A stretch of 64,000 nucleotides of DNA from Vibrio coralliilyticus (lineage in GTDB: Bacteria; Pseudomonadota; Gammaproteobacteria; Enterobacterales; Vibrionaceae). Below the pieces are notes generated by a model that saw only the letters and a list, made by a program, of their open reading frames with translations, was not told where the DNA came from and ran no database searches. The DNA lies in assembly GCF_024449095.1 (NCBI RefSeq), contig NZ_CP024627.1, positions 124,001 through 188,000 of the forward strand, given 5' to 3'. Every line of letters begins with the position of its first letter. Position 1 is the stretch's first letter. The translations under genes were made by a program, and so were the position numbers. This document shows positions 46,727 through 62,299 of this stretch, in pieces.

Positions 46727-46727
46727 T

Positions 46728-47834
46728 ATGATACCGCAATTTAAAGTTTTTATGCCAGACTCTGTAGATAAGCCACTTTTGGAAGTAATTCATTCAGGTT
46801 TTATCGGTCAAGGAAAAAAAGTTAATGAATTTGAAAAAAAACTTGGTGACTATTTTGGTAATAGTAATGTTCTAACTTTAAACTCAGGAACATCGGGTTT
46901 ACATCTTGCTTTAAGGTTGTCGAATGTTGGGGCCGGAGATGAAGTTATTACAACCGCAATGACTTGTACGGCGACAAATATGCCTATAATTTCGTCTGGT
47001 GCAAAGATTGTTTGGGCTGATGTAGATCCTGTAACTGGATTAATATCCCCTGAGAGTATAGAGGAAAAAATAACCCAAAAGACCAAAGCAATTGTTATTG
47101 TTCATTTTGGCGGTATTCCTTGCGAAATTTCTAAAATTTCTAAAATTGCAAAAGCCCGAGGTATTAAAGTAATAGAAGATGGAGCTCATGCGTTTGGTAG
47201 TGAATATAATGGCGAGAAGATAGGATGTCATTCTGATTTTGTAATGTTCTCATTGCAAGCAATCAAGCATATCACGACAGTCGATGGCGGTTTACTTTTA
47301 TGTAAGTCCAAAAGTGACTATCAAAGAGGGAAGTTGCTGCGATGGTATGGTATAGACCGAGAAACAAAAGCTAAAGGTTTTCGCTGCGAAGATGACATCC
47401 CAGAATATGGATATAAATATCATATGAACGATGTTTGTGCTGTAATTGGTATAGAGCAGCTTAAATATGTTGATGAAATAGTTAGTAAGCACATTGATAA
47501 TAAAGACTACTATGATAAGCAATTAGAAAATATCAAGGGTGTTCGATTAATTCCTTCTGAAATAAAAAGAGGAAGCTCTAGTTGGCTATATACTCTACAT
47601 ATTGAAAAAAGAGACTTTTTCATGGACTGGATGAGTAATAAGGGGATTCAGGTCTCGCGAGTTCACGAAAGAAATGATAAGCATAGTGCATTCTCGGAGT
47701 ATAAAAGCGAACTCCCTTTTTTAGATATATTTAACGCAACTCAAGTATCAATTCCTGTAGGCTGGTGGCTAGAGGATAACGAGAGAAAATATATTGTAGA
47801 TTCTATCAAAGAGTTTTCAGAATCATGTCTGTAA
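46728..47834 (+). CDS. DegT/DnrJ/EryC1-family sugar nucleotide aminotransferase
   Basis: PLP-dependent aminotransferase for 4-keto sugars, perosamine/viosamine synthase type. The Schiff-base lysine is Lys180 in FSLQAIKHITTVDGG; LNSGTSGLHLAL and VIEDGAHAFGS bind the cofactor. Length 368 aa. Directly after rmlBAC it would most simply aminate C-4 of dTDP-4-keto-L-rhamnose or its unepimerised precursor. It overlaps the acetyltransferase gene by 10 bp. Product stereochemistry cannot be read. Confidence 0.87.
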   Translation: MIPQFKVFMPDSVDKPLLEVIHSGFIGQGKKVNEFEKKLGDYFGNSNVLTLNSGTSGLHLALRLSNVGAGDEVITTAMTCTATNMPIISSGAKIVWADVDPVTGLISPESIEEKITQKTKAIVIVHFGGIPCEISKISKIAKARGIKVIEDGAHAFGSEYNGEKIGCHSDFVMFSLQAIKHITTVDGGLLLCKSKSDYQRGKLLRWYGIDRETKAKGFRCEDDIPEYGYKYHMNDVCAVIGIEQLKYVDEIVSKHIDNKDYYDKQLENIKGVRLIPSEIKRGSSSWLYTLHIEKRDFFMDWMSNKGIQVSRVHERNDKHSAFSEYKSELPFLDIFNATQVSIPVGWWLEDNERKYIVDSIKEFSESCL

Positions 47835-48355
47835 TTAAAAGTTCATATCTATCTAAAGGAGATCTATCTATTGATTTGGCCTGTAGCGAAGACGCAAACT
47901 TTATGTTTCACCTTCGTAACAGTAAAGATATATGGGAAAATTTAGAAAATATTGAACCACTAAATATGGACGGCCAATCTGAATGGATAAAGTCTATTCA
48001 AAGTTCTAAAAATAAGTATTTTATAATAAGATCTTCAGGTGAGCGTGTTGGCATTGTAAGACTGAATAATATTGATATGATCAATAGATGTGCGTGTATT
48101 GGTGTTGACGTTCATCCTTCATATCAGCGCAAGGGAATAGCTAAAGGAACTTACCATATTATGATGGAGTATTGTTTTAACAGTTTGAATTTGAATCGCC
48201 TTTATCTTTATGTATTAGATGAAAATGTCAAAGCTATTTCTTTGTATGAAGGTCTTAACTTTCAAAAAGAAGGTGTTTTGAGAGAAGCCATTTATCGAAA
48301 TGGTAAGTATATAAATTATTACCTCTATGGTATTTTAAGAAATGAATTTAAATGA
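47825..48355 (+). CDS. GNAT family N-acetyltransferase (sugar amine type)
   Basis: GNAT fold of the RimJ/RimL-PseH-like group. The acetyl-CoA loop is visible in GVDVHPSYQRKGIAKGTYHIMM (Q/R-x-x-G-x-A). C-terminal LDENVKAISLYEGLNFQKEG matches the family. Length 176 aa. The overlap with the aminotransferase gene suggests it acetylates that enzyme's amino sugar. It could alternatively serve the nonulosonate pathway downstream, which lacks its own acetyltransferase. Confidence 0.85.
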   Translation: MSVIKSSYLSKGDLSIDLACSEDANFMFHLRNSKDIWENLENIEPLNMDGQSEWIKSIQSSKNKYFIIRSSGERVGIVRLNNIDMINRCACIGVDVHPSYQRKGIAKGTYHIMMEYCFNSLNLNRLYLYVLDENVKAISLYEGLNFQKEGVLREAIYRNGKYINYYLYGILRNEFK

Positions 48356-49310
48356 ACTTACGATAGTTATTGGTGCGTATGGTGATGTAAATAAGCTTAA
48401 TGACACATTAAATAGTTTCCTTGCTTATGAACATTCTGGAATAAATATTATTGTTATAGATGACAATCAGAGTGAGGATTTAATTAACTCTAGTAAATCT
48501 GTTTGTCAAAGTTATAAAGCATTGAAAATAAAATATATAAGAAATGATAGCAGAATCGGTGTTCCTCATGTATTTAAAAAATGGCATGATGTAGTCGAGA
48601 CTAAGTTTTTTATGTTTTTCGGTGTTGGAGACAGAGTGATGCCTAATACATTACAAGTCTTGGTAAAGGCTCTGTATGATCATCCTGAAGCTTCTTTAGC
48701 ACACGGGGGGCAAAAACAGAAAATAACAGTAGGTAAGGATAGCATAAATGCGGACCAAATAGTTTCTAAAGATAGACTTGAAATTATAAGTACTGATAAG
48801 TACCTGAAGAGCTTATTAATTGGTGGGGATTACAAAATGTCCCAGATGGCAACGGTTATAAGAACTGAACAGTTTAGATATAAAGTGAAAATGTCTAAAA
48901 ATTGGTTCTGGGATTATGATTTTCATTTGGAGTATCATCTTTTTAATGATTTTATCGCTTCCATTCCTCTATTTGTAACTGAGAGAGAAGAACGAATAAT
49001 TTCTAGAGATTATTATAGTGACCTTTATCAATTTAGACTAGTTTTAGAACAAAAGTTGCAAGCTATTAAGTTTATCGAAAATTATGAGTCAAATTTGATT
49101 GAGAAAAATATTCCTGTTGTTAGGTATAGAAATAAAATCGCATTGTCCCTATTGATTAACTCGTCTCGAATTTCTAACTTATCTCGAAGAATGTATATTA
49201 TTAGAGAAGCATTAAAGGTTATAACTGGCGACTTCTTTACTTTTATTCTGTCAAAGATATTAATTCCAACCAATTACTTGTTTAAATTAATAGTTAGACT
49301 TAAACGTTAA
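48342..49310 (+). CDS. GT2 family glycosyltransferase
   Basis: GT-A fold. The N-terminal LTIVIGAYGDVNKLNDTLNSF and NIIVIDDNQSEDL are visible. FGVGDR stands in place of a clear DxD, and WFWDYDFHLEY suits an acceptor-side motif. About 300 residues, with a basic C terminus. It overlaps the acetyltransferase gene by 14 bp and is followed by a weak terminator, so it closes the first transcription unit. Probably adds the amino sugar. Confidence 0.75.
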   Translation: MNLNELTIVIGAYGDVNKLNDTLNSFLAYEHSGINIIVIDDNQSEDLINSSKSVCQSYKALKIKYIRNDSRIGVPHVFKKWHDVVETKFFMFFGVGDRVMPNTLQVLVKALYDHPEASLAHGGQKQKITVGKDSINADQIVSKDRLEIISTDKYLKSLLIGGDYKMSQMATVIRTEQFRYKVKMSKNWFWDYDFHLEYHLFNDFIASIPLFVTEREERIISRDYYSDLYQFRLVLEQKLQAIKFIENYESNLIEKNIPVVRYRNKIALSLLINSSRISNLSRRMYIIREALKVITGDFFTFILSKILIPTNYLFKLIVRLKR

Positions 49311-49335
49311 CCCTTCGATAAGCGGGTTATTTTTA
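49309..49335 (+). terminator. Weak terminator after the first O-antigen gene group
   Basis: TAACCC / GGGTTA stem around a 10-nt loop followed by TTTTT, directly after the GT2 stop. It separates the rmlBAC-aminosugar group from the exporter and leg genes, though read-through is likely. Confidence 0.5.
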
Positions 49336-49443
49336 ATGAGTCATATAGTGAAGTTGTATATTTGAATTTATAGCCTATGATTTATGGGTTTTATTCGTAC
49401 AAATAATGATTGTGGTTTTAATTCGGTATTTAGAGTTTTTAAT

Positions 49444-51225
49444 ATGAGCAGAGATATAAAAAGGCTGTGGGACCTTTTCTCTTCGAAGCAGAAAAAAAAA
49501 TTGGTTTTACTACAGGTAATGGTAGTTGCGATCTCAGTCTTTGAGATTGTTACCATTGGAATGGTAGCTGGATTCATGAGTATCATTAGTGATACTGGCA
49601 AACTGGAAGAATATTCATACTTGTTTGATATCTTATTTTCTGGAAAGCTGACTACTCAATCTATTTTACTTTATTTATCACTACTTATAGTTACTTGTCT
49701 CACAGTAAGTTCTTTACTCTCTGTTATCATGACTAAAAAAATAAATAGAATTTCACTTATTTTAGGTCATGATATTACGCTGCGTTTATTTAAATATTAT
49801 CAAAGCCAAGATTGGCTGTATTACTTGAATAAAAATACTAGCGATCTTTCTAATCGAGTACTCATCGAAAGCGGACGTCTGGCTATAGCAATACTTACCC
49901 CAGCTGTAAATCTACTATCTAGGCTAGTGTTCATCACCTTAATTGGATTCGCTATTTTATACTATGATGTTAAAATGACATTAATAATAATGACCTTTTT
50001 TATATGTAGCTATATTATTATATCCTTACTTCTCAAGAATAAGCTGATAAGGAATAGTAAGAATCTTGTGAGAGCTAATAAATATAAAAGCAAAGTTGTT
50101 AAGGAGTCATTTTTAAACATAAAGTCTTCAATATTGCTTGGTAAAAAAGATTACTTTATTAAATCTTTCGAAGTGGAAAGTTTGAACTATTCCGAGTCTC
50201 ATGCCAGCACAATGACGATCTCGGGTGCTCCCAAGTACTTGATGGAGTGGTTAGCCTATATAAGCATGATCATGATAATAGTTTTAAACCTTGTGATAAA
50301 TGGAGATGATTTTTCCTCTGTACTACCCTTACTTACTATTTATGGTTTGGCCGCTTTCAAGTTATTACCGTCACTCCAACAAGTTTATCATAACCTCTCT
50401 ACAATAAAGGGTAATATATCAGTACTACATATATTGTATTCAGACTTGAAGCATGGTTTAGATGACACTGAGCCGAAGAAGTCTGCTGAATCATTCCATT
50501 TTAAAGATGTGCTTGAAATAGAAAAAGGGACATTTTCCTATAATAATAACAAGGAGCTAGCTTTAGACTCTGTGAGTCTTAAAATTAGGCGTCTAGAAAA
50601 AATAGGAATAGTCGGACATTCCGGTTCTGGTAAGTCAACTTTAATTGACGTTCTTTGTGGGTTGATACCTTTACAGGAAGGTAACTTTAAGGTTGATGGG
50701 AATGCTATTAACGATAATTCATCATGGTCGAGCAATATTTCTTATGTACCGCAGTTAGTTACCTTGTTGGATGCTTCTATTGCTGAGAATATTGCTTTTG
50801 GCGTGAGTTATAATGATATTGATTGGGAAAAACTGAACCAAGCAATTGAACTTTCTTGTTTGTCAGAACTAATAGAACGATTACCTGAAGGCGTTAATAG
50901 CCAAATTGGAGAGAATGGCGTTCAAATCTCTGGGGGCCAAAGACAAAGAATTAGTATTGCACGAGCGTTATACTTCGAGTCAGATATTATTATTTTTGAT
51001 GAAGCTACTAGCGCTTTAGATGGAATAACTGAGAGTCAAATCATGGAATCCATCAAAAACTTGTCTGGGAAAAAGACGATTATAATGATTGCTCATCGGC
51101 TTAAAACTATAAAGAGTTGTGACCGTATTTATTTTATGGATAAAGGTAGGGTAGTCGATGAAGGTAGTTATGAATACTTATTAGAGAATAATGAAAAGTT
51201 TAAAGAAATGGATAAGTTCTCATAA
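49444..51225 (+). CDS. ABC transporter, fused permease and ATPase (MsbA/PglK type)
   Basis: Half-transporter with about six membrane helices (residues ~20-310) and an ATPase domain (~340-590). Walker A is GHSGSGKST, the signature SGGQRQRISIARAL, and Walker B IIIFDEATSALD. ATG 49444 (MSRDIKRLWDLF) is preferred over ATG 49384. It resembles PglK/WlaB, which flips lipid-linked oligosaccharide across the inner membrane. No Wzx flippase is seen in the window, so this may move the O-unit. Lipid or protein export cannot be excluded. Confidence 0.85.
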   Translation: MSRDIKRLWDLFSSKQKKKLVLLQVMVVAISVFEIVTIGMVAGFMSIISDTGKLEEYSYLFDILFSGKLTTQSILLYLSLLIVTCLTVSSLLSVIMTKKINRISLILGHDITLRLFKYYQSQDWLYYLNKNTSDLSNRVLIESGRLAIAILTPAVNLLSRLVFITLIGFAILYYDVKMTLIIMTFFICSYIIISLLLKNKLIRNSKNLVRANKYKSKVVKESFLNIKSSILLGKKDYFIKSFEVESLNYSESHASTMTISGAPKYLMEWLAYISMIMIIVLNLVINGDDFSSVLPLLTIYGLAAFKLLPSLQQVYHNLSTIKGNISVLHILYSDLKHGLDDTEPKKSAESFHFKDVLEIEKGTFSYNNNKELALDSVSLKIRRLEKIGIVGHSGSGKSTLIDVLCGLIPLQEGNFKVDGNAINDNSSWSSNISYVPQLVTLLDASIAENIAFGVSYNDIDWEKLNQAIELSCLSELIERLPEGVNSQIGENGVQISGGQRQRISIARALYFESDIIIFDEATSALDGITESQIMESIKNLSGKKTIIMIAHRLKTIKSCDRIYFMDKGRVVDEGSYEYLLENNEKFKEMDKFS

Positions 51226-51270
51226 AGATAAACCAAAATAACATATCTCTATAACATAGGAAGGTAGTTA

Positions 51271-52461
51271 ATGAATACTATTTTGTCTTTAATTGGCCGT
51301 AATAAAGACTTATTTACCCAAGACATTTGTTGTTACGAAGTCGAATTGTCTAATATTGTCAGTGAATCACGGTTTTTGGTGTTGGGTGGCGCTGGGTCAA
51401 TTGGACAAGCCGTAACTAAAGAGATCTTCAAACGTAATCCCAAGAAGTTACATGTTGTTGATATTAGTGAAAACAACATGGTGGAGCTTGTTCGAGATAT
51501 TCGCAGTTCGTTTGGTTACATAGATGGTGACTTCCAAACATTTGCTTTGGACATAGGTTCTCTAGAGTACGATGCATTCATTAAAGCCGACGGTCAGTTC
51601 GATTATGTGCTGAACTTATCTGCGCTTAAGCATGTTAGAAGTGAAAAAGATCCTTATACATTGATGCGCATGATCGATGTAAATGTTTTTAATACAGAGA
51701 AAACGATCCAACAGTCTATTGATGCTGGTGCGAAAAAGTATTTCTGTGTTTCAACAGATAAAGCTGCAAACCCAGTCAATATGATGGGGGCGTCTAAGCG
51801 TATTATGGAAATGTTCCTGATGCGTAAAAGCGAACAAATGGCAATCTCAACTGCTCGATTTGCAAATGTAGCATTCTCGGATGGCTCTTTGCTTCACGGG
51901 TTTAACCAACGTATCCAAAAGCGTCAACCTATCGTGGCGCCGAACGACATCAAACGCTACTTTGTTACTCCTCAAGAGTCAGGCGAACTGTGTTTAATGT
52001 CTTGTATTTTTGGTGAAAATCGTGACATTTTTTTCCCGAAATTGAGTGAAGCTCTACATCTTATTTCGTTTGCAGATATTGCGGTGAAATACCTAGAGCA
52101 ACTTGGCTTTGAGCCTCACCTATGTGAAACAGAAGAAGAAGCCCGCCAACTTGCACATACGCTTCCAGAGCAAGGGAAATGGCCATGTTTGTTTACTGCA
52201 AGTGATACGACGGGTGAAAAAGACTTTGAAGAGTTTTTTACAGATAAAGAAGAGTTAGATATGTCGCGATTCGAAAATCTGGGCATCATCAAAAATGAAC
52301 CTCTTTATGAGCAAGAACTTCTCACCTTGTTTGAAAACAGCATTTCTGAGATGAAAGGTGAGCGAGCTTGGACTAAAGAGCAGATTGTGAAACTGTTCTT
52401 TACCATGATCCCTGATTTTGGGCACAAAGAAACGGGGAAATACCTCGATAGTAAGATGTAA
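51271..52461 (+). CDS. legB: Nucleotide-GlcNAc 4,6-dehydratase, LegB type
   Basis: First committed enzyme of legionaminic-type sugar synthesis, making the 4-keto-6-deoxy derivative of GDP- or UDP-GlcNAc. Rossmann GGAGSIG lies at 39-45 and STDK at 161-164. The active site is MMGASK (171-176), with Met in the place of the usual Tyr as in the FlaA1/PglF-related group. Length 396 aa. SD GGAAGG lies before the ATG. It leads the leg block; a ptmE gene downstream suggests the GDP-linked route. Confidence 0.87.
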   Translation: MNTILSLIGRNKDLFTQDICCYEVELSNIVSESRFLVLGGAGSIGQAVTKEIFKRNPKKLHVVDISENNMVELVRDIRSSFGYIDGDFQTFALDIGSLEYDAFIKADGQFDYVLNLSALKHVRSEKDPYTLMRMIDVNVFNTEKTIQQSIDAGAKKYFCVSTDKAANPVNMMGASKRIMEMFLMRKSEQMAISTARFANVAFSDGSLLHGFNQRIQKRQPIVAPNDIKRYFVTPQESGELCLMSCIFGENRDIFFPKLSEALHLISFADIAVKYLEQLGFEPHLCETEEEARQLAHTLPEQGKWPCLFTASDTTGEKDFEEFFTDKEELDMSRFENLGIIKNEPLYEQELLTLFENSISEMKGERAWTKEQIVKLFFTMIPDFGHKETGKYLDSKM

Positions 52462-52473
52462 GTGGAGCATTCA

Positions 52474-53622
52474 ATGAAAGCGACAACTATTGTTGAATTT
52501 GTGAGAGATACTTACAAAACAGACGAATTTATTCCCTTACATGCACCAACGTTCGATGGCAACGAAAAAGCGTACGTAATGGAAACGATTGAAAGTACAT
52601 TTGTTTCTAGCGTCGGTAAGTTTGTTGATGATTTTGAGAGAAAAATTGAAGCTTACACTGGTACGGCTAAAGCTGTAGCGACAGTGAACGGTACAGCAGC
52701 ATTGCATGCTGCATTGTACATGGCTGATGTTCAAAGAGGCGACTTGGTCGTCACACAAGCTTTGACTTTTGTTGCAACCTGCAACGCTCTTTATCATATG
52801 GGGGCTGAGCCTATTTTTCTGGATGTATCTCCAGTGAGTTTAGGGTTGTGTCCGAAGGCTGTAGATGCATTTTTAGAAGAGAATGCTGAAGTCACAGACG
52901 CGGGGTGTATCCATAAAAAAACAGGTAGAAGAATCAAAGCCGTTGTACCAATGCACACGTTTGGTCACCCTGTAGAGCTTGATGAACTGGTTGCCGTTTG
53001 CTTGAAATGGAACATCACGTTGGTTGAAGATGCAGCAGAAAGTCTAGGATCGCTCTATAAGGGCAAACACACCGGTACTATTGGTGATTTTGGTGCTGTC
53101 AGCTTCAATGGCAATAAGATCATCACCACAGGCGGTGGTGGCATGGTGTTATGTAAGACTCAAGAATTAGGCGCGCATACTAAGCATGTTACTACGACAG
53201 CAAAAGTTCCTCATCCGTATGAGTTCTTCCATGATGAACCTGGTTTCAACTATCGTATGCCAAACCTGAATGCGGCTCTAGGGTGTGCTCAGATGGAAGT
53301 TATCGAGCAGTACCTAAAACAAAAGAGAGTGCTCGCCGAAGGTTACAATAACTTTTTTAAAGGTTCAGACATCAAGTTTGTCACTGAACCTGAATATGCG
53401 CAGTCAAACTATTGGTTAAATGCGATCATTTGTCCAGATAAAGAGAGCCGCGAAGAGATTATTGCTACTACGAATAGTTTGGGTGTTATGACTCGACCAA
53501 TTTGGCAACTTATGCATAGATTACCTATGTTTGAAAATGCAATACGTAGTGATTTAACTCACTCTGAGTTTATCGAAGCACGCTTGGTGAATTTACCTAG
53601 TACTCCTACGGAGATGTCATGA
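52474..53622 (+). CDS. legC: LegC-type aminotransferase
   Basis: DegT/DnrJ family PLP enzyme that aminates C-4 of the LegB product. The PLP lysine is Lys215 in SFNGNKIITTGGGGM; VNGTAALHAAL and VEDAAESLGSLYKG bind cofactor. ATG 52474 has GGAG upstream; a GTG at 52462 is in frame. Length 382 aa fits the LegC family. It overlaps legG by 4 bp. Confidence 0.9.
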   Translation: MKATTIVEFVRDTYKTDEFIPLHAPTFDGNEKAYVMETIESTFVSSVGKFVDDFERKIEAYTGTAKAVATVNGTAALHAALYMADVQRGDLVVTQALTFVATCNALYHMGAEPIFLDVSPVSLGLCPKAVDAFLEENAEVTDAGCIHKKTGRRIKAVVPMHTFGHPVELDELVAVCLKWNITLVEDAAESLGSLYKGKHTGTIGDFGAVSFNGNKIITTGGGGMVLCKTQELGAHTKHVTTTAKVPHPYEFFHDEPGFNYRMPNLNAALGCAQMEVIEQYLKQKRVLAEGYNNFFKGSDIKFVTEPEYAQSNYWLNAIICPDKESREEIIATTNSLGVMTRPIWQLMHRLPMFENAIRSDLTHSEFIEARLVNLPSTPTEMS

Positions 53623-54776
53623 GAGTTGCAATAGTAACTAGCACACGAGCGGATTTCGGGATCCTATTACCACTTATTCATAAGTTAGAAGCAGACCCTT
53701 TTTTTAGCGTTACCATTTTAGCTACGGGCAGTCATACAGACACTGTTCGAGGAGGCACACTGCAAGAAATTAAATCTGAAGGTTTCAAAGACCTTGCCGT
53801 TATTGATATTGATACTTCAGATACGACTGAAATTGGCGTTGCAAAATCTGCGGCTGAAACTGTAGAAAAGTTTGCGTTTGAGCTTGATAAATTGCACCCG
53901 GATCTTGTCATCCTGCTAGGTGACCGTTATGAGATTTTATCGGTAGCCATGGCTGCATTTCTACTGAAAATCCCAGTAGCTCATATTTCAGGAGGAGACG
54001 TAACTTCAGGTGCGTTGGACGACTCTATTCGACATAGCATTACAAAACTATCTCATATTCATTTTCCAACAACGGAAGAGTATAGAGAGCGAGTAATACA
54101 ACTTGGTGAACAGCCTGATAAGGTATTTAACGTCGGAAATTTATGTATCGACAACGTTAAAAAAGTGTTACCAGTATCCAAAGCTGAGTTAGAATCTTTC
54201 TTAGATTTTGATTTGGATAAATTTGAGAGAAACATTCTAGTCACTCTTCACCCAGAAACAACATATGGTGATCAACGAGTTTTAAACGATATTTTCTTTG
54301 ATGCTTTATCAAACCTAAAGGATGTGGGAATCATAATCACGTACCCAAACCATGATGCGGGGGGCGATACGATAATCGAAAGTATTTTAAAAGTTAAGTC
54401 AGAAAGCCCATATTCAATCTGTGTTCGCGAATCATTGGGTATGCGTCGTTATCACTCATTATTAAGGTATGTTGATGCTGTTGTAGGAAACTCTTCGAGT
54501 GGAATAACAGAAGTCCCTTCTTATGGAATACCGACCATTGACATTGGAAGTCGACAACAGGGGCGCATACGTGCTTACTCTGTGATAAATGTCGGATATG
54601 AGTCTGATGACATACAGCGTGCACTTAAGCTAGCTCTTAGTGATGAGTTTAAACATAAATGCCAAGAAGTTAAAAACCCTTATGGTGAGGGTGATAGTGC
54701 AGAGAAAATTGTAAATATCCTTAAAAGTATCAAACTTAAAGGGCTTATCAAGAAGGAATTCTATGATGCAAAATAA
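53619..54776 (+). CDS. legG: Hydrolysing nucleotide-sugar 2-epimerase, LegG (NeuC family)
   Basis: Inverts C-2 and removes the nucleotide, giving 2,4-diamino-2,4,6-trideoxymannose-type substrate for LegI. Family features are TSTRADFGILLPLIHKL, ILLGDRYEIL and HISGGDVTSGALDDSIRHSI. The C-terminal part has VVGNSSSGITEVPSYGIPTI. Length 385 aa. It overlaps legI by 14 bp. Confidence 0.92.
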   Translation: MRVAIVTSTRADFGILLPLIHKLEADPFFSVTILATGSHTDTVRGGTLQEIKSEGFKDLAVIDIDTSDTTEIGVAKSAAETVEKFAFELDKLHPDLVILLGDRYEILSVAMAAFLLKIPVAHISGGDVTSGALDDSIRHSITKLSHIHFPTTEEYRERVIQLGEQPDKVFNVGNLCIDNVKKVLPVSKAELESFLDFDLDKFERNILVTLHPETTYGDQRVLNDIFFDALSNLKDVGIIITYPNHDAGGDTIIESILKVKSESPYSICVRESLGMRRYHSLLRYVDAVVGNSSSGITEVPSYGIPTIDIGSRQQGRIRAYSVINVGYESDDIQRALKLALSDEFKHKCQEVKNPYGEGDSAEKIVNILKSIKLKGLIKKEFYDAK

Positions 54777-55782
54777 TAGTCATGTCTACATTATTGCAGA
54801 GGCAGGCGTTAACCATAATGCAGACTACCAAATGGCAAAACAAATGATCGAAGTTGCTAAGGATTCTGGTGTTGATGCAGTTAAATTTCAAATCGCTATT
54901 CCCGAATTAGTGATGACAAAATGGGCCGGTAAAGCAGACTACCAAGAAGTAAATACCGGTAGTGATGAAAGCCAACTAGAAATGTGTAAAAAGCTGCATC
55001 TAGATCTATCAGATTACGCGGGATTAAAAGCTTATTGTGATGATCTTGGGATTACGTTTCTTGCGACTGCTTTTGATCACCCATCTTTTGAGGTGCTTAA
55101 GACTTTAGGTGTAGATACCTATAAAATCCCATCAGGCGAAGTAAACAATTTGCCGTATCTACGTATGCACTGTGAAGAAGGTATTAAGATTATCTTATCT
55201 ACTGGTATGGCAGATATGGCAGAGGTTACAGAAGCCGTAAATGTGTTGGTGAAAGGTGGTGTAGATAAAGCAAACATCACAGTTCTCCACTGTAATACAG
55301 AATACCCAACACCTATGGGGGATGTGAACCTTAAGGCCATGACTCAAATCAAAGATGAGTTGGATGTTGCTGTTGGGTACTCAGATCATACAAAAGGGAT
55401 TGAGGTTCCAATTGCTGCTGTTGCATTAGGAGCTACATGTATTGAGAAACACTTTACTTTAGATCGTACTTTACCGGGACCAGATCATGTTGCGAGCATT
55501 GAGCCAGACGAGTTAGCGCTGATGGTTCAATCAATTAGAAATATTCAAGCGGCTATTGGTGGCTCTGGTGAAAAGATCCCTTCTGAAAGTGAGAAGAAAA
55601 ACATTGAGATAGCGCGTCGCTCGATTGTAGCTAGCTGTGAGATAAAAAAAGGTGAGTTGCTTACAGTTGATAATATTACCACCAAGCGTCCAGCTACGGG
55701 ACTAAGTCCAATGCTTTGGGATGAGGTAATTGGGACTGTCGCTGAACGAGACTATATCGAAGACGACTTGATTGAGAAATAA
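54763..55782 (+). CDS. legI: Nonulosonic acid synthase, LegI (NeuB family)
   Basis: Condenses the 6-deoxy amino sugar with phosphoenolpyruvate to form a nine-carbon sialic-like acid. An N-terminal TIM barrel (IAEAGVNHN, VKFQ, YKIPSGEVNN, GYSDHTKGIEVPIAA, EKHFTLDR) is followed by a C-terminal antifreeze-like SAF domain (about 280-339, RRSIVASCEIKKGELLT). Length 339 aa. It sits between legG and the ATP-grasp gene. Confidence 0.94.
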   Translation: MMQNNSHVYIIAEAGVNHNADYQMAKQMIEVAKDSGVDAVKFQIAIPELVMTKWAGKADYQEVNTGSDESQLEMCKKLHLDLSDYAGLKAYCDDLGITFLATAFDHPSFEVLKTLGVDTYKIPSGEVNNLPYLRMHCEEGIKIILSTGMADMAEVTEAVNVLVKGGVDKANITVLHCNTEYPTPMGDVNLKAMTQIKDELDVAVGYSDHTKGIEVPIAAVALGATCIEKHFTLDRTLPGPDHVASIEPDELALMVQSIRNIQAAIGGSGEKIPSESEKKNIEIARRSIVASCEIKKGELLTVDNITTKRPATGLSPMLWDEVIGTVAERDYIEDDLIEK

Positions 55783-55783
55783 T

Positions 55784-56731
55784 ATGAAAAAGACAGTACT
55801 TTTTCCAAATGCAGGGCGTCGAGTTGAGTTGATTCAACGTTTTCAAATGGCAGCTAAAGAAAATGATATTGACCTTACTATTATTGGTACCGATATCACA
55901 ACAAACGCACCTGCGCTGTCATTTTGTGATAAGACTTATCTCCTCCCGAAAGAGCGAAATTTAAACACACTTGAGCGTTTTCTTGAAATTATAGAAACAA
56001 ATAGTGTGGACATTGTGGTTTGCACGATTGACCCTGATTTAGAGTTTTTTTCGCAGCACAGGGGCGCTTTGTCGACTGTAAACAGCAAGAATGTGGAACT
56101 CCTGCTTTCAGATGTAAATATCATTGATGCGTCATCAGATAAGCGAAAAACTGCACAGTTTTTCAATCAAATTGGAGTATCCACACCGCAGTTATATGAC
56201 CAAGCATCTATAAACTTCCCCACCTTTGCGAAACCAGTAAAAGGAAGTGGTTCCTTTGGCGCTAAACTACTGGTTGATGCCTCCGATTTAGAAAGCTATT
56301 TAATTGAATTTGGAGAGCATGATCCTATTTTTCAAGAGTACGTTTCGGGGAAAGAGTACACTCTAGATTGCTTTGTTGATATTAATGGCGAAACGGTAGT
56401 TTCCCCAAGAGAAAGACTGAGAGTCCGAGGTGGGGAAGTAACCGTAAGTAAAACAGTTGAGCTACCAGAATTAGAGAAGCAAGCTAAAAAGGTATTATCT
56501 TCAGGTGGTTTCTTTGGGCCTGTGACTTTACAAGCGATTGTGGATGAGACTACTTCTCGTCCGTACTTTATTGAGATCAATGCTAGATTTGGGGGTGGTT
56601 CAATTCTGTCCATTGAGGCTGGATTGAATAGCCCATATCACATTTTAAGTCAGGATCATGATTGGTTTTCTGGTTTGAAAAGAAACCTGACTATGATGAG
56701 ATATGATATGTCAGTATTCTCTGAAGGTTGA
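55784..56731 (+). CDS. ATP-grasp domain ligase in nonulosonate cluster
   Basis: ATP-grasp enzyme (carbamoyl-phosphate-synthase-like; carboxylate-amine ligase group). A PreATP-grasp N-terminal Rossmann part (VLFPNAGRRVELIQRF) precedes the grasp folds with FAKPVKGSGSFGAKLL, the Glu-containing FQEYVSGKEYTLDC, and the metal site YFIEINARFGGG. ATG 55784 is used, giving 315 aa. It lies within the leg operon and is paired with a HAD phosphatase. Such enzymes join a carboxylate to an amine through an acyl phosphate, so it may N-acylate the C-4 or C-2 amine or a later intermediate. Specific substrate unknown. Confidence 0.85.
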   Translation: MKKTVLFPNAGRRVELIQRFQMAAKENDIDLTIIGTDITTNAPALSFCDKTYLLPKERNLNTLERFLEIIETNSVDIVVCTIDPDLEFFSQHRGALSTVNSKNVELLLSDVNIIDASSDKRKTAQFFNQIGVSTPQLYDQASINFPTFAKPVKGSGSFGAKLLVDASDLESYLIEFGEHDPIFQEYVSGKEYTLDCFVDINGETVVSPRERLRVRGGEVTVSKTVELPELEKQAKKVLSSGGFFGPVTLQAIVDETTSRPYFIEINARFGGGSILSIEAGLNSPYHILSQDHDWFSGLKRNLTMMRYDMSVFSEG

Positions 56732-56732
56732 G

Positions 56733-57425
56733 ATGAAAAAACTCGTAATTTTTGACTTGGACGATACTATTTATCCAGAGCAGCAATACAATTTAGCATG
56801 TTATAGGGCTGCTGCTGATAGATTTCTTGAAGATTACTCTGTAGATATCTATCCATATATCGAAGAGCAGTTTAAGAAAAAAAACTACCAGAACCTTTTT
56901 TGTTTAGCGCTCGAGAATGCTGGAATAGCTTGTTCTGAAGACTATATTTTTAACGTATTAGTTCAGACTTACCGAAGCTTTAAGCCCGAGTTAACACCTT
57001 ATAAAGGCTTTAACGAGTATATTGAAAAGCTAAAAGAAAAGTTTCAGCTTGCTATCATCACGGATGGGCCTCTTGATATACAAAAATCTAAGGTCAATGC
57101 TTTAGGTATTGCCTCAGACTTTGATTTGATACTGTGTTCCTCTGAGTTGGGGGATAATGTCAAAAAACCTAGTTCAGAGCCCTTTGAATACGTATTGAGC
57201 AAGTTGAAGGTTCATCATCAAGATAGCGTTTATATTGGTGATAACATCAAGAAGGACTTCGTATACCCAAACCATTCTGGGATGCATTCAATTCATTTAT
57301 CTAATAAGTCAGAGAATGACAATTTAATTTATGAGTCGCAAGTTGGTGAAGCTGCTCATCATTATTGTGAGTCTTATGATGAGTTATATTTATTACTACA
57401 CCAGATATTCAACGATGGAAAATAA
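56733..57425 (+). CDS. HAD superfamily hydrolase
   Basis: Haloacid dehalogenase-like phosphatase, subfamily I. The nucleophile motif is FDLDDTIY (Asp8, Asp10). Motif II is AIITDGP, the Lys motif KKPSSEPF, and motif IV VYIGDNIKKDF. A helical cap lies between (about 15-90). ATG 56733 follows the ATP-grasp stop by one base and uses a GAAGG ribosome site inside that gene's end. The pair looks obligately co-expressed. The substrate is not readable; a phosphorylated sugar or ligase product is plausible. Confidence 0.85.
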   Translation: MKKLVIFDLDDTIYPEQQYNLACYRAAADRFLEDYSVDIYPYIEEQFKKKNYQNLFCLALENAGIACSEDYIFNVLVQTYRSFKPELTPYKGFNEYIEKLKEKFQLAIITDGPLDIQKSKVNALGIASDFDLILCSSELGDNVKKPSSEPFEYVLSKLKVHHQDSVYIGDNIKKDFVYPNHSGMHSIHLSNKSENDNLIYESQVGEAAHHYCESYDELYLLLHQIFNDGK

Positions 57426-57497
57426 ATTACTATTAATCTATAAATTTATCAGAGCACCTTTGAGTTTTTTATCTTTCTACAATAGAAATAAAGTTAT

Positions 57498-58544
57498 ATG
57501 AGTCATAATTGGAAAGAAATATTGGTCTCTTCGGCAGAGACTATAAGATCAGTATTGAAAACCATTGATCAACAAGCCCTTAAACTTGCATTAGTGGTTG
57601 ATCAAGATAATAAGTTGCTCGGTACTGTTAGTGATGGTGATATTCGCCGGGCTATTTTAAAAGATTCTTCATTAGAAGACGAAGTGGTGACGGTGATGAA
57701 TTCCAATCCAACCACTGCTGACGTCAGTATGACTCGTGAGAGTATCTTATTGCTAATGGAAAAAAAGGAACTTCATGCGATACCAGTACTTGATAACCAA
57801 GTAGTGATCGGATTAGAAACTCTGCATGGCATATTGCATAAGCCGCAATATGATAATCCTGTTTTTTTGATGGCGGGTGGGTTTGGTACACGCCTTAAAC
57901 CTTTGACAGACAATTGTCCTAAGCCGTTGCTGAAGGTAGGTGATCGACCAATCTTAGAAACTGTGATTCTGAGCTTTATCCGATATGGTTTCAGCAACTT
58001 TTATATCTCTACCCATTACTTACCCGAGATGATTCAAAATACCATTGGTGATGGTTCTCGATGGGGGGTGAACATTCAGTATATTCATGAGGATACACCG
58101 TTGGGTACGGGGGGAGCTCTTGGACTATTGCCAGAGGATTTACCAGATCTACCTGTGATAGTGATGAATGGAGACGTGTTGACAAAGATCAATTTCGAGG
58201 ACGTACTTGCCTTTCATAATAGTAAACAATCTAACGCTACTATGTGTGTACGGGAATTTGAATATCAGGTTCCTTTTGGGGTTGTTGAAGAACATGATTT
58301 TAAAATCACCAACATTGTTGAGAAACCAACGTATCGCTTTCATGTAAATGCGGGTATCTACGTCATTAACAAGTCATTGATTTCAAAGGTTAAAAAAGAA
58401 GAGTACCTGGATATGCCGACCTTGTTTGAATCGCATATTGGCAATGATGCTCATGTCTTCCCTTTCCACGAATATTGGTTGGATATCGGACGCATGGATG
58501 ACTTCAAACGTGCACAAGTTGATATTTTGACATTAGGTCTATAA
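57498..58544 (+). CDS. ptmE: CBS-domain nucleotidyltransferase, PtmE type
   Basis: Two CBS modules (about 8-60 and 65-112) are fused to a sugar-nucleotidyltransferase domain (about 120-345). The catalytic loop is GGFGTRL (127-133) followed by KPLTDNCPKPLLKVG, with VMNGDVL as metal site. In Campylobacter jejuni the same architecture (PtmE) makes GDP-glucosamine for the legionaminic route. Its presence predicts a GDP-linked pathway here. A 72-bp AT-rich gap precedes it. Confidence 0.87.
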   Translation: MSHNWKEILVSSAETIRSVLKTIDQQALKLALVVDQDNKLLGTVSDGDIRRAILKDSSLEDEVVTVMNSNPTTADVSMTRESILLLMEKKELHAIPVLDNQVVIGLETLHGILHKPQYDNPVFLMAGGFGTRLKPLTDNCPKPLLKVGDRPILETVILSFIRYGFSNFYISTHYLPEMIQNTIGDGSRWGVNIQYIHEDTPLGTGGALGLLPEDLPDLPVIVMNGDVLTKINFEDVLAFHNSKQSNATMCVREFEYQVPFGVVEEHDFKITNIVEKPTYRFHVNAGIYVINKSLISKVKKEEYLDMPTLFESHIGNDAHVFPFHEYWLDIGRMDDFKRAQVDILTLGL

Positions 58545-58549
58545 TACGA

Positions 58550-59251
58550 ATGAAAATACTAGCGATTGTACCTGCGCGAGGTGGAAGCAAACGCCTACCA
58601 GGAAAAAATATAAAATGCTTACATGGTAAGCCTTTGATTCAGTGGGCAATTGAGTCGGCATCTGACATCGAAGAAATCAGCCGCGTTATAGTCTCTACAG
58701 ACTCTCCTGAGATTGCAAAAATTGCGTCACAATCTGGTGGTGAAGTACCATTTATGCGCCCAAAAGAGCTAGCTAGTGATACTAGCTCAAGCACGGATGT
58801 GGTCAAACATGCCCTTAAATTTTACGAAAGACAAGGTGAATACTTTGATTATGTTCTATTGCTACAGCCGACCTCTCCAATTCGCAATGCTGAACACGTT
58901 ACCGAGGCTATAAAATTATTACAATTGAAAGAGGCAGATGCAGTCGTATCCGTATGTAAAAGTGAGCATTCTCCACTATGGACCAATACGTTACCTGATG
59001 ATTTATCTATGGACCAGTTCATAACGGATGATATAAAAAATACTCGTAGTCAGGATCTTCCCTCTTTTTATAGGCTGAATGGCGCTATTTATTTATCAAA
59101 TGTCAAAAGGTTTTATGAAGAGAGTACCATGTTATTATCATCAAATATTTATGCTTATAAAATGGACAACGAATGTTCTGTAGATATTGATCATGAACTA
59201 GACTTTCTAGTAGCCGAAGCAATTCTAAAATATAAGGAAAAAAATGTATAA
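58550..59251 (+). CDS. legF: CMP-nonulosonate (CMP-legionaminate) cytidylyltransferase
   Basis: NeuA/LegF family enzyme that activates the nonulosonic acid with CTP. The N-terminal motif IVPARGGSKRLPGKNIKCL is diagnostic. Other landmarks are VVSTDSPEIAKIA, LLQPTSPIRNAEHV and the C-terminal VDIDHELDFLVAEAI. Length 233 aa. It overlaps the next gene by 8 bp. Confidence 0.93.
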   Translation: MKILAIVPARGGSKRLPGKNIKCLHGKPLIQWAIESASDIEEISRVIVSTDSPEIAKIASQSGGEVPFMRPKELASDTSSSTDVVKHALKFYERQGEYFDYVLLLQPTSPIRNAEHVTEAIKLLQLKEADAVVSVCKSEHSPLWTNTLPDDLSMDQFITDDIKNTRSQDLPSFYRLNGAIYLSNVKRFYEESTMLLSSNIYAYKMDNECSVDIDHELDFLVAEAILKYKEKNV

Positions 59252-60206
59252 TGTTTTAATTATTGGAGCTGGCCAATTAGGAAGCCGGCACTTACAGGGT
59301 GCGCTGTTGAGTGTTAATCAATTAAATATCACGGTTGTTGATCCTTCACCGAAATCATTGGATGTTGCTAAAGAAAGAGCAGGCCAAGTTCAGTTTGGGA
59401 ATGCTAATTCGACAATTATTTACTCCTCGGACATCCCAAAAAATAAATCATATGATGTTTGTATTATAGCTACAGCTGCGAAAGTTCGTGCTGCTGTAAC
59501 AAAGCAGCTTTTGGCTTTCAGTAGGGTCGAACATATTATTTTTGAAAAGGTATTATTTCAAAAGCTAGTAGATTATACGGAAGTCAGAAAAATTTTAAAA
59601 GATACCAATACTACTGGATGGGTTAATTGCCCTAGGCGACTATTTTCAACATATGTAGAATTAAAAGAAGCATTAAATACATCTAAGCCAATTAGCATGG
59701 CGGTTAAAGGCAATGCTTGGGGTATGTCATGTAATAGTATTCACTTTATTGATATTTTTTCTTATTTGATTGACAGTACATCATTAAATTTAACTGAATC
59801 AGAACTAAGCCCAGAGTTAATTGAAAGTAAACGTGTGGGATTCTATGAGACAACAGGGAAAATGAAATTTATTTCAGAAGAGCATTCGCTGGTGTTAGAA
59901 TGTAATCGCGGTGATGAGTTAAACTTGAGTTTATCTATTGAAAATGGTGTTGATAAATATATCATTAATGAGTCTGATGGCAATTGGACACAGAGTGTTG
60001 GTGGAGTTCAGACTGAGAAAGCATATATCCCGTTACTTCAAAGCGAGTTAACTGGCGGGAATATTGATGACTTAGTGTTATCGAATACTTGCGGATTAAC
60101 ACCATTTTCACAGTCATGTGCTCTTCATATCCCTTTTATTAAATCTCAGTTGATGCATATGTCAGCAGTTCTTGAAAAAGAATTGGACGCTTGTCCTATT
60201 ACCTAA
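59244..60206 (+). CDS. Gfo/Idh/MocA family oxidoreductase (first of a pair)
   Basis: NAD(P)-dependent sugar dehydrogenase-like fold. The N-terminal GAGQLGSRHLQ is the dinucleotide motif, and FEKVL stands where the family has EKP. The C-terminal part is diverged from the classical family. Length 320 aa. It overlaps legF by 8 bp. In C. jejuni, oxidoreductases (PtmA, PtmF) take part in the legionaminic gene set, but I cannot say that this is PtmF. Confidence 0.75.
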   Translation: MYNVLIIGAGQLGSRHLQGALLSVNQLNITVVDPSPKSLDVAKERAGQVQFGNANSTIIYSSDIPKNKSYDVCIIATAAKVRAAVTKQLLAFSRVEHIIFEKVLFQKLVDYTEVRKILKDTNTTGWVNCPRRLFSTYVELKEALNTSKPISMAVKGNAWGMSCNSIHFIDIFSYLIDSTSLNLTESELSPELIESKRVGFYETTGKMKFISEEHSLVLECNRGDELNLSLSIENGVDKYIINESDGNWTQSVGGVQTEKAYIPLLQSELTGGNIDDLVLSNTCGLTPFSQSCALHIPFIKSQLMHMSAVLEKELDACPIT

Positions 60207-60221
60207 ATATTTGGAGAAATA

Positions 60222-61160
60222 ATGATTTGGCTAGTTGGCTCCGGCCTTATGTCCATAGATTACGCTAAAGTTTTAGAATCGCAACAACACGATTACTTAG
60301 TGATTGGTAGAGGAAAACGTTCAGCTACTGACTTTACAGCGCAAACGGGTAAAGAAGTGATTCAAGGGGGACTTGAGAGCTTTCTGGATTCAGCTCCTGA
60401 GTTACCTAAAGCAGCAATAGTTAGTGTTGGTGTTGCTCAGTTGTATGAAACAACCTTGGCACTTATTGAAGCTGGTGTAAAAAAAATTTTGGTTGAAAAG
60501 CCTGGTGGGATGAGTCAGATTGAAGTAGATACTCTTCATCAGCGCAGCCAGACTAACGCGTGTAAAGTATATATTGCTTACAATAGAAGGTTCTTTTCTT
60601 CAGTTCTAGCTTTGGAAAATAAGATCAAAGAAGAGGGAGGTGTCACCTCGTTTAATTTTGAACTGACAGAATGGGCGCATGTTATTGAAAAAATTGACAA
60701 ACCTGAAAGTGCCTTAAAAAAATGGTTTTTAGCTAACTCAACTCATGTAGCAGATTTAGCATTTTATTTAGGAGGCAGGCCAAAAGAGCTAGCCAGTTTT
60801 GTTCAAGGTAAATTGGCATGGCATCCTGCAGCTTCTGTCTTTTCTGGCGCAGGCATTAGCGACTCAGGTGCATTATTCAATTATGCGGCAAATTGGGAGT
60901 CGGCAGGCCGTTGGTCCGTTGAAGTATTGACTAAAGAAAATCGTTATATTCTCCGTCCAATAGAAACACTTCAAGTGCAGAGAAGAGGAACGATTCCTAT
61001 TGTGGATATAGATATTGACAACTCTTTGGATTTACAGTTTAAGCCTGGTCTTTATAAACAAGTTGAATCATTCTTATCAGGTGACGACAAGTTTTTATGT
61101 AAAATCGAAGAGCAAGTGCTTTTGTTTTCGACTTATGAAAAAATGGCTGGCTATCTATAA
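60222..61160 (+). CDS. Gfo/Idh/MocA family oxidoreductase (second of a pair)
   Basis: Second NAD(P)-dependent oxidoreductase. The nucleotide motif VGSGLMSIDYAKVL is at the N terminus, and the family EKP motif appears in ILVEKPGGMSQIEV. YIAYNRRFFSS and NSTHVADLAFYLGG carry conserved Tyr/Arg and His. Length 312 aa. It has GGAG before the ATG and lies 15 bp after the first. The tandem arrangement suggests an oxidise-then-reduce epimerisation or a heterodimer; both are inference. Confidence 0.82.
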   Translation: MIWLVGSGLMSIDYAKVLESQQHDYLVIGRGKRSATDFTAQTGKEVIQGGLESFLDSAPELPKAAIVSVGVAQLYETTLALIEAGVKKILVEKPGGMSQIEVDTLHQRSQTNACKVYIAYNRRFFSSVLALENKIKEEGGVTSFNFELTEWAHVIEKIDKPESALKKWFLANSTHVADLAFYLGGRPKELASFVQGKLAWHPAASVFSGAGISDSGALFNYAANWESAGRWSVEVLTKENRYILRPIETLQVQRRGTIPIVDIDIDNSLDLQFKPGLYKQVESFLSGDDKFLCKIEEQVLLFSTYEKMAGYL

Positions 61161-61234
61161 ACTGCAACCTGCTTAGTTTTAGCAATAGCTAATGTGGTTT
61201 TGGTTGGAATCAATTGAAATAGGTGTCAAAAGTA

Positions 61235-62227
61235 ATGAGTGTCATTAAATTTAAAAAGATAACCAAGATATATAATAAGTTAATGATCTCAGAATCTTTG
61301 TATTCGATTGCGTTATATAGACACATTATGAATGATGACGTATCGGATACAATTTTTTTAATTGGAGATAATATATCATACACTGAAGTGTTAAATAGTT
61401 TGGAAAATGTTATTGTTTTTGATAAAAAACAAGTGGGTTTTTTGGGCATCTCCGATGCCCTGTTTTTTTTGCTTGGCATAAAAAGGAAAAGGTTTGATGA
61501 GTTATGGGGATTATTGAGTACTATCGATAGTATTTATGGACATGATCACTTAGTAGTGTCGAGATTATTTAAAGATCATAAGATAACATTAGTTGAAGAC
61601 GGCTTGTCAAACTATTTTGAACCAAAAAAACAAGGAGTTTGTAAGGAGTTTTTGAAGAAGGTTATTTTCAAAAGAGCACACTCAAAAGGATATAACAGTA
61701 AACATGACGAAATATACTTGACAGGATTATTACCTCTTCCAAAAAGCTTTAAGGCAAAGGTAAACTGGATAGATAAACAGTTGTTTTTAAAGTCGTTAAC
61801 TACTTTAGGGAATGGGGTATTTTCACCTGACTTACAAAGCCAAAAACTGTATTCATTGATTATTACGCAACCCTTATCGGAAGAAGGCGCGATAACTGAG
61901 TTGGAGAAAGTAAACTTATATAAAGGGGTAATTTCAAAGTATAGGTTGAAAAATGTAATAATTAAACCACACCCTAGAGAAACAACCATGTATCAAGAAT
62001 ATTTTGATGAATCGGAAAACGTGAATGTGTTAAAGCCGCATATTTTATCTGAATCGTTATTTTTAGCATTAAAGTTTAGTGTGATATGTACGGTTTCATC
62101 TGCGTCAGTGTATAGCTCAGATGTTGGTTCTGCTAGGCTAATTGTATTAGGAACTGGAATTCATCCAGCTTTGAAGGGAAAACTAGGTGAAATTCCATTT
62201 TTTGATAGCTATGACTCTAACTACTAA
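61235..62227 (+). CDS. Probable CMP-nonulosonate glycosyltransferase (sialyltransferase-like)
   Basis: The three short motifs shared by several bacterial sialyltransferase families are present in order: EDG (121-123, in TLVEDGLSNYF), HP (246-247, in IIKPHPRET) and SS (288-289, in CTVSSASVYSS). YGHDH precedes them. Such enzymes use CMP-activated sialic-type sugars. ATG 61235 is preferred over GTG 61223, giving 330 aa. It directly follows the leg genes, whose product is a CMP-nonulosonate. Exact GT family (52, 38 or relatives) is not decided. Confidence 0.72.
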   Translation: MSVIKFKKITKIYNKLMISESLYSIALYRHIMNDDVSDTIFLIGDNISYTEVLNSLENVIVFDKKQVGFLGISDALFFLLGIKRKRFDELWGLLSTIDSIYGHDHLVVSRLFKDHKITLVEDGLSNYFEPKKQGVCKEFLKKVIFKRAHSKGYNSKHDEIYLTGLLPLPKSFKAKVNWIDKQLFLKSLTTLGNGVFSPDLQSQKLYSLIITQPLSEEGAITELEKVNLYKGVISKYRLKNVIIKPHPRETTMYQEYFDESENVNVLKPHILSESLFLALKFSVICTVSSASVYSSDVGSARLIVLGTGIHPALKGKLGEIPFFDSYDSNY

Positions 62228-62299
62228 TATTTTAGGTTTTACTCATAGCGCCTGAATTTAGTATAGGTACCCCCTTAATGATCTCTATTACTCTCAATT

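Follow-up and report, generated by a model that had tools for sequence, protein, structure and literature searches.

An ATP-grasp ligase and a HAD phosphatase as candidate replacements of the acetyltransferase LegH in a legionaminic acid gene cluster of Vibrio coralliilyticus

In the present study, we analysed a row of eight genes at positions 51271-59251 of a 64,000-nucleotide (nt) stretch of Vibrio coralliilyticus DNA, the whole of which is called the window here. The genes are intact open reading frames (ORFs) on one strand in the order legB-legC-legG-legI-[ATP-grasp]-[HAD]-ptmE-legF, with intergenic gaps of 0, -4, -14, 1, 1, 72 and 5 nt. The 1-nt spacing of legI, ligase and HAD genes holds with the preferred starts, which are ATG 55784 for the ligase and ATG 56733, favoured over an upstream ATG 56703, for the HAD protein. 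The original prediction had listed legB, legC, legG, legI, ptmE and legF, and an ATP-grasp ligase with a HAD protein between legI and ptmE; intact ORFs with family matches were found for the six, and the pair was confirmed at 55784-56731 and 56733-57425. The genes are as follows (NDP, nucleoside diphosphate; GlcNAc, N-acetylglucosamine; GlcN-1-P, glucosamine 1-phosphate; CMP, cytidine monophosphate):

51271..52461, + strand: legB, NDP-GlcNAc 4,6-dehydratase (PF02719, Polysacc_synt_2, 155 bits)
52462..53622, + strand: legC, 4-aminotransferase with GTG start (TIGR04181, 539.5 bits, cut-off 420)
53619..54776, + strand: legG, hydrolysing NDP-sugar 2-epimerase (TIGR03568, 414.9 bits, cut-off 235.9)
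54763..55782, + strand: legI, nonulosonate synthase (TIGR03569, 459.9 bits, cut-off 399.65; NeuB and SAF domains)
55784..56731, + strand: ATP-grasp carboxylate-amine ligase, proposed C-4 N-acyl ligase (PF21360, PF02655, PF15632)
56733..57425, + strand: predicted HAD phosphatase (HAD_2, 83.5 bits)
57498..58544, + strand: ptmE, CBS and nucleotidyltransferase domains, GlcN-1-P guanylyltransferase type (PF00483, NTP_transferase; PF00571)
58550..59251, + strand: legF, CMP-nonulosonate cytidylyltransferase (PF02348, CTP_transf_3, 99.3 bits)

LegB, LegC, LegG, LegI and LegF occur together, and by these family matches the set is assigned to the biosynthesis of CMP-activated legionaminic acid (CMP-Leg); the product is thus predicted to be a legionaminic acid. 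No NCBIfam model matched LegB over cut-off, and LegF scored 173.4 bits with TIGR03584 (PseF), under the cut-off of 205.7, with CTP_transf_3 over its own. LegI is the sole NeuB-family match in the whole genome. The role of PtmE is presumed from the guanosine diphosphate (GDP) pathway of Campylobacter.

The protein at 55784-56731 is assigned to the ATP-grasp carboxylate-amine ligase superfamily, with PylC-like_N (56.1 bits), ATP-grasp_3 (55.7) and ATPgrasp_Ter (47.3) all over cut-off, and K120, K150, E191, D195, R209, R211, Q250, E264, N266, R268 and R306 are invariant across 20 aligned sequences (ligase residues are numbered throughout as in the window). Its profile gave 219.7 bits with 2pn1 and 50.2 bits with PylC (4ffl), and ATP-grasp enzymes of the PylC and D-Ala-D-Ala ligase type are its sequence relatives. 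At the positions of R209/R211 and Q250, however, 2pn1 has K/K and D, the K-type pattern, unlike the window ligase. The protein at 56733-57425 is assigned to the HAD phosphatase superfamily; D8, D10, T110, K145, D170 and D175, which we take to be the HAD DxD, T/S, K and acidic motif IV residues, are invariant in 13 aligned sequences including that of the window.

The CMP-legionaminic acid pathway of Campylobacter is GDP-linked and includes LegH, a NeuD-type hexapeptide N-acetyltransferase. Ahead of the LegG step, the leg route offers a free amine at C-4 of the LegC product, and this position ends up as C-7 of legionaminic acid. LegB, LegC, LegG, LegI, LegF and PtmE-type enzymes are common to Campylobacter and the window, whereas the window genome has no LegH over cut-off and has the ATP-grasp and HAD genes instead. 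The search covered the 5.02-Mb assembly (3 contigs, listed as 100% complete). TIGR03570, the LegH model, exceeded 160.8 bits at 0 of 17 places genome-wide (best 56.3), and two LegH proteins from other clusters, used as positive controls, scored 213.9 and 187 bits. A LegH hidden elsewhere in the genome was rejected on this basis, and the earlier statement that LegH is missing was borne out at the family cut-off. The window also encodes two hexapeptide proteins (34173-34856 and 39002-39565), which were rejected as LegH because their best scores, under cut-off, were with WcaF/WbbJ-type models; their genes are near heptosyltransferase and Kdo (3-deoxy-D-manno-octulosonate)-transferase genes. A formyltransferase (as in L119) or a FemAB protein (as in L101 and L167) was also rejected as the acylating enzyme, since these occur in other leg clusters and none is among the window leg genes.

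In the class sample, NeuB was found in 109 of 369 genomes (140 matches), and 111 regions were fetched and compared together with the window, the matches left unfetched being among the lower-scoring ones. One NeuB was counted per locus, with neighbours within 6 kb and thresholds of >150 bits for ATP-grasp, >150 for LegH and >50 for PseH-like matches; a leg cluster was defined as legC, legG and legI within 6 kb. Among the 27 leg clusters, 17 had a LegH-profile match, three an ATP-grasp match (window, L106 and L172), seven neither and none both. LegH was present in 0/3 clusters with ATP-grasp versus 17/24 without it (Fisher p=0.041). For the pseudaminic (Pse) clusters, a PseH-like match was seen in 0/2 with ATP-grasp versus 21/29 others (p=0.097). 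Among the seven leg clusters with neither gene, L101 and L167 carry FemAB-type genes and L119 a formyltransferase gene, which suggests further 7-N groups.

The same eight genes in identical order were found in two Pseudoalteromonas luteoviolacea records (L011 and L012), with ligases 71-72% and legB 85% identical to those of the window, and therefore the window arrangement is not due to chance. These two loci were the only ones returned by a contig scan for relatives. In the genus sample of 148 genomes, from which P. luteoviolacea is evidently absent, five had a ligase match at E 1e-15, namely the window itself and four at 28-32% identity, and such low numbers indicate that the close form is patchy. 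Ligase relatives in plasmid records were all under 60% identity (best 33%), and no second ligase copy was found in the genome at E 1e-3.

The original prediction had suggested a variant pathway unfamiliar to its author; the pair is not unique, as it recurs in pseudaminic and bacillosamine-type loci. Of the 394 genomes of the order sample, 13, window included, had a ligase relative at E 1e-20, and flanks of about 10 kb at most were read. Genes for a dehydratase, an aminotransferase and a sugar transferase accompany the pair in bacillosamine-type loci, in the order dehydratase, aminotransferase, HAD, ligase, sugar transferase (L025, L026, L028 and L029) or sugar transferase-ATP-grasp-HAD-aminotransferase-dehydratase (L212). 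The pair also lies within pseudaminic loci (L030, L031, L036 and L157, with ligase and HAD adjacent in the first three) and leg loci (L011/L012, L229, the window, and L032 with the order legB, legC, ligase, HAD, legG). The HAD profile gave no match in L027, L033, L034 and L035. Of 250 relatives in a protein database search, the 120 listed include at least 15 ATP-grasp+HAD fusions and at least two sugar transferase+ATP-grasp fusions (P0043 and P0065). The ATP-grasp and HAD proteins form a unit, and this unit recurs in three pathways where an acyltransferase would be expected. At L157:7535-9550, the HAD and NeuB matches share one 671-aa (amino acid) open frame beside the ATP-grasp gene, which may reflect a true fusion or an artefact of high G+C content in that genome.

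For the partnership with phosphatases, 77 distinct ATP-grasp matches were grouped by residues, and a phosphatase was counted if its match lay within 1.5 kb. Excluded from this grouping were 25 locus ids that duplicate a place already counted (L012, for example, is the same species as L011) and the first-set ATP-grasp matches of <=100 bits (L174, L177 and L211); of the 47 places listed for the phylum sample, those with a locus were examined. With Q250 and N266 (H266 in one ligase), a combination chosen after the data had been seen, a phosphatase was nearby in 23/27 loci: HAD in 15, calcineurin-like in six (L135, L214, L235, L237, L246 and L265) and PHP in two (L106 and L236). With K209/K211/D250, from which the R209/R211/Q250 of the window ligase is distinct, the count was 0/7 (p=6e-5), and in the remaining residue groups 0/43, which makes 0/50 for all ligases outside the Q250/N266 group; the phosphatase profiles derive from genes next to ligases of that group (Q-type, the window kind) and are therefore biased against detecting phosphatases elsewhere. 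Pfam cut-offs were exceeded by HAD in the window, L229, L231 (marginally, 26.9 versus 26.4 bits) and L232, by calcineurin-like proteins in L135, L214, L235 and L246, and by PHP in L106 and L236; the calcineurin-like assignment of L237 and L265 comes from a small purpose-built profile only. That three unrelated phosphatase folds stand beside one kind of ligase argues that phosphate removal is needed and not HAD as such, and the link with phosphatases suggests a phosphorylated acid as donor. The earlier idea that the HAD enzyme processes a phosphorylated intermediate was strengthened in this way, as calcineurin-like or PHP phosphatases take the HAD place by related ligases. A separate group of ATP-grasp proteins (L216-L219, L234 and L239) has Q250 with A/S/G266; a LegC-type aminotransferase is within 1.5 kb in 5/6 of them, and no phosphatase match was found in that distance.

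ATP-grasp ligases form an acyl phosphate and then hand the acyl group to an amine. In the window, LegB and LegC would produce NDP-4-amino-4,6-dideoxy-GlcNAc with a free C-4 amine, and the ATP-grasp enzyme would activate a phosphorylated hydroxy-carboxylate, most likely the abundant 3-phosphoglycerate, as an acyl phosphate and join it to this amine in place of LegH. The HAD enzyme would strip the ester phosphate from the N-phosphoacyl product or first free the acid, either order being allowed, and LegG, LegI and LegF would then lead to CMP-Leg5Ac7(N-glyceroyl), where the N-glyceroyl group is at C-7. We infer the enzyme activity, the acceptor, the order of steps and the donor alike. With the ligase in the place of LegH, the product probably has an unusual N-acyl group. 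The ATP-grasp protein quite likely serves as an N-acyl ligase replacing LegH, and the HAD protein probably handles the phosphorylated donor or product. Glyceroyl in particular, which is argued by analogy, is a tentative choice that falls just short of an even balance. Overall, the whole reading, in which the 7-N group of legionaminic acid would be set by an ATP-grasp ligase and a phosphatase replacing LegH and would likely be glyceroyl, appears to us evenly poised.

The closest known counterpart is Neisseria PglB2, an ATP-grasp/phosphoglycosyltransferase inserted with ORF8 and credited with the 4-glyceramido sugar GATDH (4-glyceramido-2-acetamido-trideoxyhexose) in the consulted parts of PMC11130364 and PMC6959607; cryo-electron microscopy of the pilus bore out the structure of this sugar (PMC10948894, in part). 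There, the ATP-grasp domain is reported to stand in for an acetyltransferase that modifies the 4-amino group of UDP (uridine diphosphate)-2-acetamido-4-amino-2,4,6-trideoxyglucose, and pglB and pglB2 are mutually exclusive (same excerpts of PMC11130364 and PMC6959607). Both systems have an ATP-grasp in the acetyltransferase place and the same type of 4-amino intermediate, and the family of the window ligase includes sugar transferase+ATP-grasp fusions; the window ligase differs in having a gene of its own within a nonulosonate pathway. As a PglB2-type N-acyl ligase would, the window ATP-grasp gene sits in a 4-amino-sugar locus without cognate LegH. The search for relatives with a sugar transferase/ATP-grasp fusion gave no Neisseria name among the matches listed (best 120), and the Neisseria uptake motif was present in at most 6 copies in any genome of the class sample. 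In Tannerella forsythia, Pse5Am7Gra is a nonulosonate with N-glyceroyl at C-7 (PMC6388019, PMC6120980, in part), the position derived from the C-4 amine, though it is a pseudaminic and not a legionaminic acid. The 4-glyceramide credited to PglB2 and this known C-7 N-glyceroyl group are the reasons for preferring 3-phosphoglycerate. In Shewanella oneidensis, the ATP-grasp gene sfmE belongs to a flagellin nonulosonate locus and shares its operon with a NeuB gene; deletion of sfmE shifts flagellin mass and cuts soft-agar spreading (PMC3765264, in part). SfmE differs by its 412 aa and ATP-grasp_4 domain, and the word phosphatase is absent from the PMC3765264 text, one gene description of which was covered in part. 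The literature searched, largely without subscription papers, contained no report of an ATP-grasp/HAD pair in a legionaminic route. We read the window pathway as a known one, in which the acetyltransferase is exchanged for an ATP-grasp/phosphatase cassette.

Several points weigh against the glyceroyl ligase reading. The HAD family gives no substrate name, and no assay of an ATP-grasp/phosphatase pair was found in the literature consulted. Neither LegH nor ATP-grasp was found in 7/27 leg clusters, and lack of LegH is therefore not specific; moreover, L145, which is outside the Pse count as no aminotransferase match occurs there, has an ATP-grasp plus a weak PseH-like match (64 bits). The glyceramide step of PglB2 is termed 'proposed' in the available text of PMC6959607, and the link between PglB2 and the window comes from the name of the domain and the order of the genes. 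The co-divergence of ligase and HAD protein favours the pair, with a distance correlation of 0.91 over 12 pairs, but this overall value is inflated by close pairs; the correlation is 0.52 for pairs with ligase distance >0.6. The ligase-aminotransferase correlation over 11 loci is 0.83 overall and 0.05 for distant pairs. Four Q-type ligases (L027, L145, L158 and L258) have no phosphatase within 1.5 kb, and the late choice of the Q250/N266 grouping and the origin of the phosphatase profiles count here too. A prediction that R209+R211 marks a phosphatase partner, written before the phylum result was seen, held in 2/8 phylum matches (L232 and L246, not L234, L239, L256, L266, L267 and L269), or 3/9 with the genus match L229. 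It failed in the E250 group, where profiles found no amino-sugar gene nearby, and in the Q250 group with A/S/G266; L230, the one new K-type match, from the genus sample, fitted it. R209/R211 alone was hence rejected as the marker and replaced post hoc by Q250/N266, which fits 8/8 genus and phylum matches (L229, L231, L232, L235, L236, L237, L246 and L265) and is not an independent test.

A wider form of the glyceroyl reading is possible but more doubtful, namely a general, exchangeable cassette of ATP-grasp and phosphatase that would add N-acyl groups derived from phospho-hydroxy acids to C-4 amines and in the window would make 5-N-acetyl-7-N-glyceroyl-legionaminic acid. It would act on NDP-4-amino-4,6-dideoxyhexoses of bacillosamine, pseudaminic and legionaminic pathways, with glyceroyl or perhaps glycolyl as acyl group; the ligase would hold the phosphorylated acid by its arginines, and HAD, calcineurin-like or PHP phosphatases would be recruited independently. 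N-acyl groups shape how sialic-acid-like sugars appear to phages, hosts and antibodies, and a recognisable signature of ligase plus phosphatase would allow such modifications to be predicted from genomes. The hypothesis is testable with two enzymes. The window pair is also a candidate for the glyceroyl-type modification of Tannerella, whose gene is called elusive in the part of PMC6120980 consulted.

Among the other explanations, the same module may use another phosphorylated donor, such as 2-phosphoglycolate (giving 7-N-glycolyl) or phosphoserine (7-N-seryl). The phosphatase link does not specify which acid is used, and a CMP-Leg5Ac7-glycolyl computed at 654.167 [M-H]- would fit the modified CMP-Leg of Tannerella forsythia UB4 reported at m/z 654.3, in a part of PMC6388019 where the ion mode is not seen. 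Nevertheless, no sequence feature that separates glyceroyl, glycolyl and seryl donors was found, and PglB2, the lone such ATP-grasp protein for which the literature consulted (in part) reports a product, is credited with glyceramide; we regard another donor as unlikely.

The ligase may instead attach a free amino acid such as alanine, with the HAD protein doing something else. Amino acids are the substrates of several sequence relatives of the ligase (PylC, an L-amino acid ligase and D-Ala-D-Ala ligases), and in Vibrio vulnificus CMCP6 the sugar Leg5Ac7AcAla has been reported (PMC7371886, in part). However, genes for GNAT or pyridoxal phosphate (PLP) enzymes belong to K-type loci (6/7: L033, L034, L035, L172, L215 and L230; none seen near L213) and not to the ligase type of the window. 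These are GNAT in L035, L172, L215 and L230 (the last by a purpose-built profile, 35 bits), PALP in L033 and L230, a PLP decarboxylase-like protein in L034, and a class I aminotransferase together with a 2-hydroxyacid dehydrogenase in L172. The amino acid reading also leaves the recurrent phosphatase partner unexplained, and we consider it distinctly unlikely. Of the original proposal that the ligase adds an amino acid or other carboxylate, the unusual N-acyl group was thus supported by the LegH counts (0/3 versus 17/24), and the amino acid donor less so, because the K-type pattern differs. No LegH match was found in the leg cluster at L172:1036-13429, which combines a K-type ATP-grasp gene with genes for GNAT, a class I aminotransferase and a D-2-hydroxyacid dehydrogenase; its product may be an N-acetyl-aminoacyl legionaminic acid, of which Leg5Ac7AcAla is a reported example.

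By another account, the GNAT at 47825-48355 acts as LegH or PseH, ordinary di-N-acetyl-legionaminic acid is made, and the ATP-grasp/HAD pair modifies something else. The genome-wide search for NeuD/LegH-like and PseH-like proteins, proposed with the original prediction, gave none over cut-off; TIGR03585, the PseH model, exceeded 93.1 bits at 0/13 places. This GNAT was the best match of the genome at 83.6 bits, under that cut-off, and scored 110 bits with a purpose-built PseH profile. Its gene shares 10 nt with a DegT gene downstream of rmlB, rmlA and rmlC, from which we infer that it most simply acetylates a deoxythymidine diphosphate (dTDP)-4-amino sugar. The purpose-built PseH profile found no match in the fetched 20.9 kb of either eight-gene P. 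luteoviolacea locus, and the central position of the ligase in the leg operon, with gaps of 1 nt, also speaks against the GNAT as LegH. The GNAT account, raised earlier as an alternative, is hence the weaker one and improbable. That the HAD protein has no link to the ligase and serves a sialate-type route as its nonulosonate-9-phosphate phosphatase is scarcely credible and was set aside: such phosphatases do fall in the HAD superfamily, but the pair is present in loci without NeuB match in the fetched stretch (L025, L026, L028, L029 and L212), ATP-grasp+HAD fusions exist, and LegI belongs with the NeuB-type synthases, whose sugar substrate is unphosphorylated.

The neighbouring features are as follows:

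46728..48355, + strand: DegT aminotransferase and GNAT behind rmlB, rmlA and rmlC, the rival acetyltransferase candidate
49384..51225, + strand: ABC transporter, candidate flippase (ABC_tran and ABC_membrane, Pfam)
59244..60206, + strand: Gfo/Idh oxidoreductase 1 (PF01408, 29 bits, cut-off 24)
60222..61160, + strand: Gfo/Idh oxidoreductase 2 (PF01408, 21.8 bits, under the cut-off of 24)
61223..62227, + strand: GT52/polysialyltransferase-like protein, candidate CMP-nonulosonate transferase (PF07922, 50.1 bits; PF07388, 49.6 bits)

The two Gfo/Idh-type genes, the GT52/polysialyltransferase-like gene and a Wzy-type gene follow 3' of legF, and the ABC transporter, which we liken to PglK, lies 5' of legB. 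Related ABC genes were seen in the leg-cluster loci L103, L106, L172, L182 and L184, plus other loci, and this type of transporter near leg clusters is possibly a dedicated flippase. The Gfo/Idh tandem also occurs in the leg cluster L172, there 5' of legB (L172:104-1995; identities 31% and 43%), and Gfo/Idh-like genes were seen by eye in the leg clusters L106, L119 and L184. The G+C content of the surface-sugar genes at 44224-63499 is 0.29-0.43 per gene versus 0.449 in window positions 1-40000, and this lower content fits horizontal exchange.

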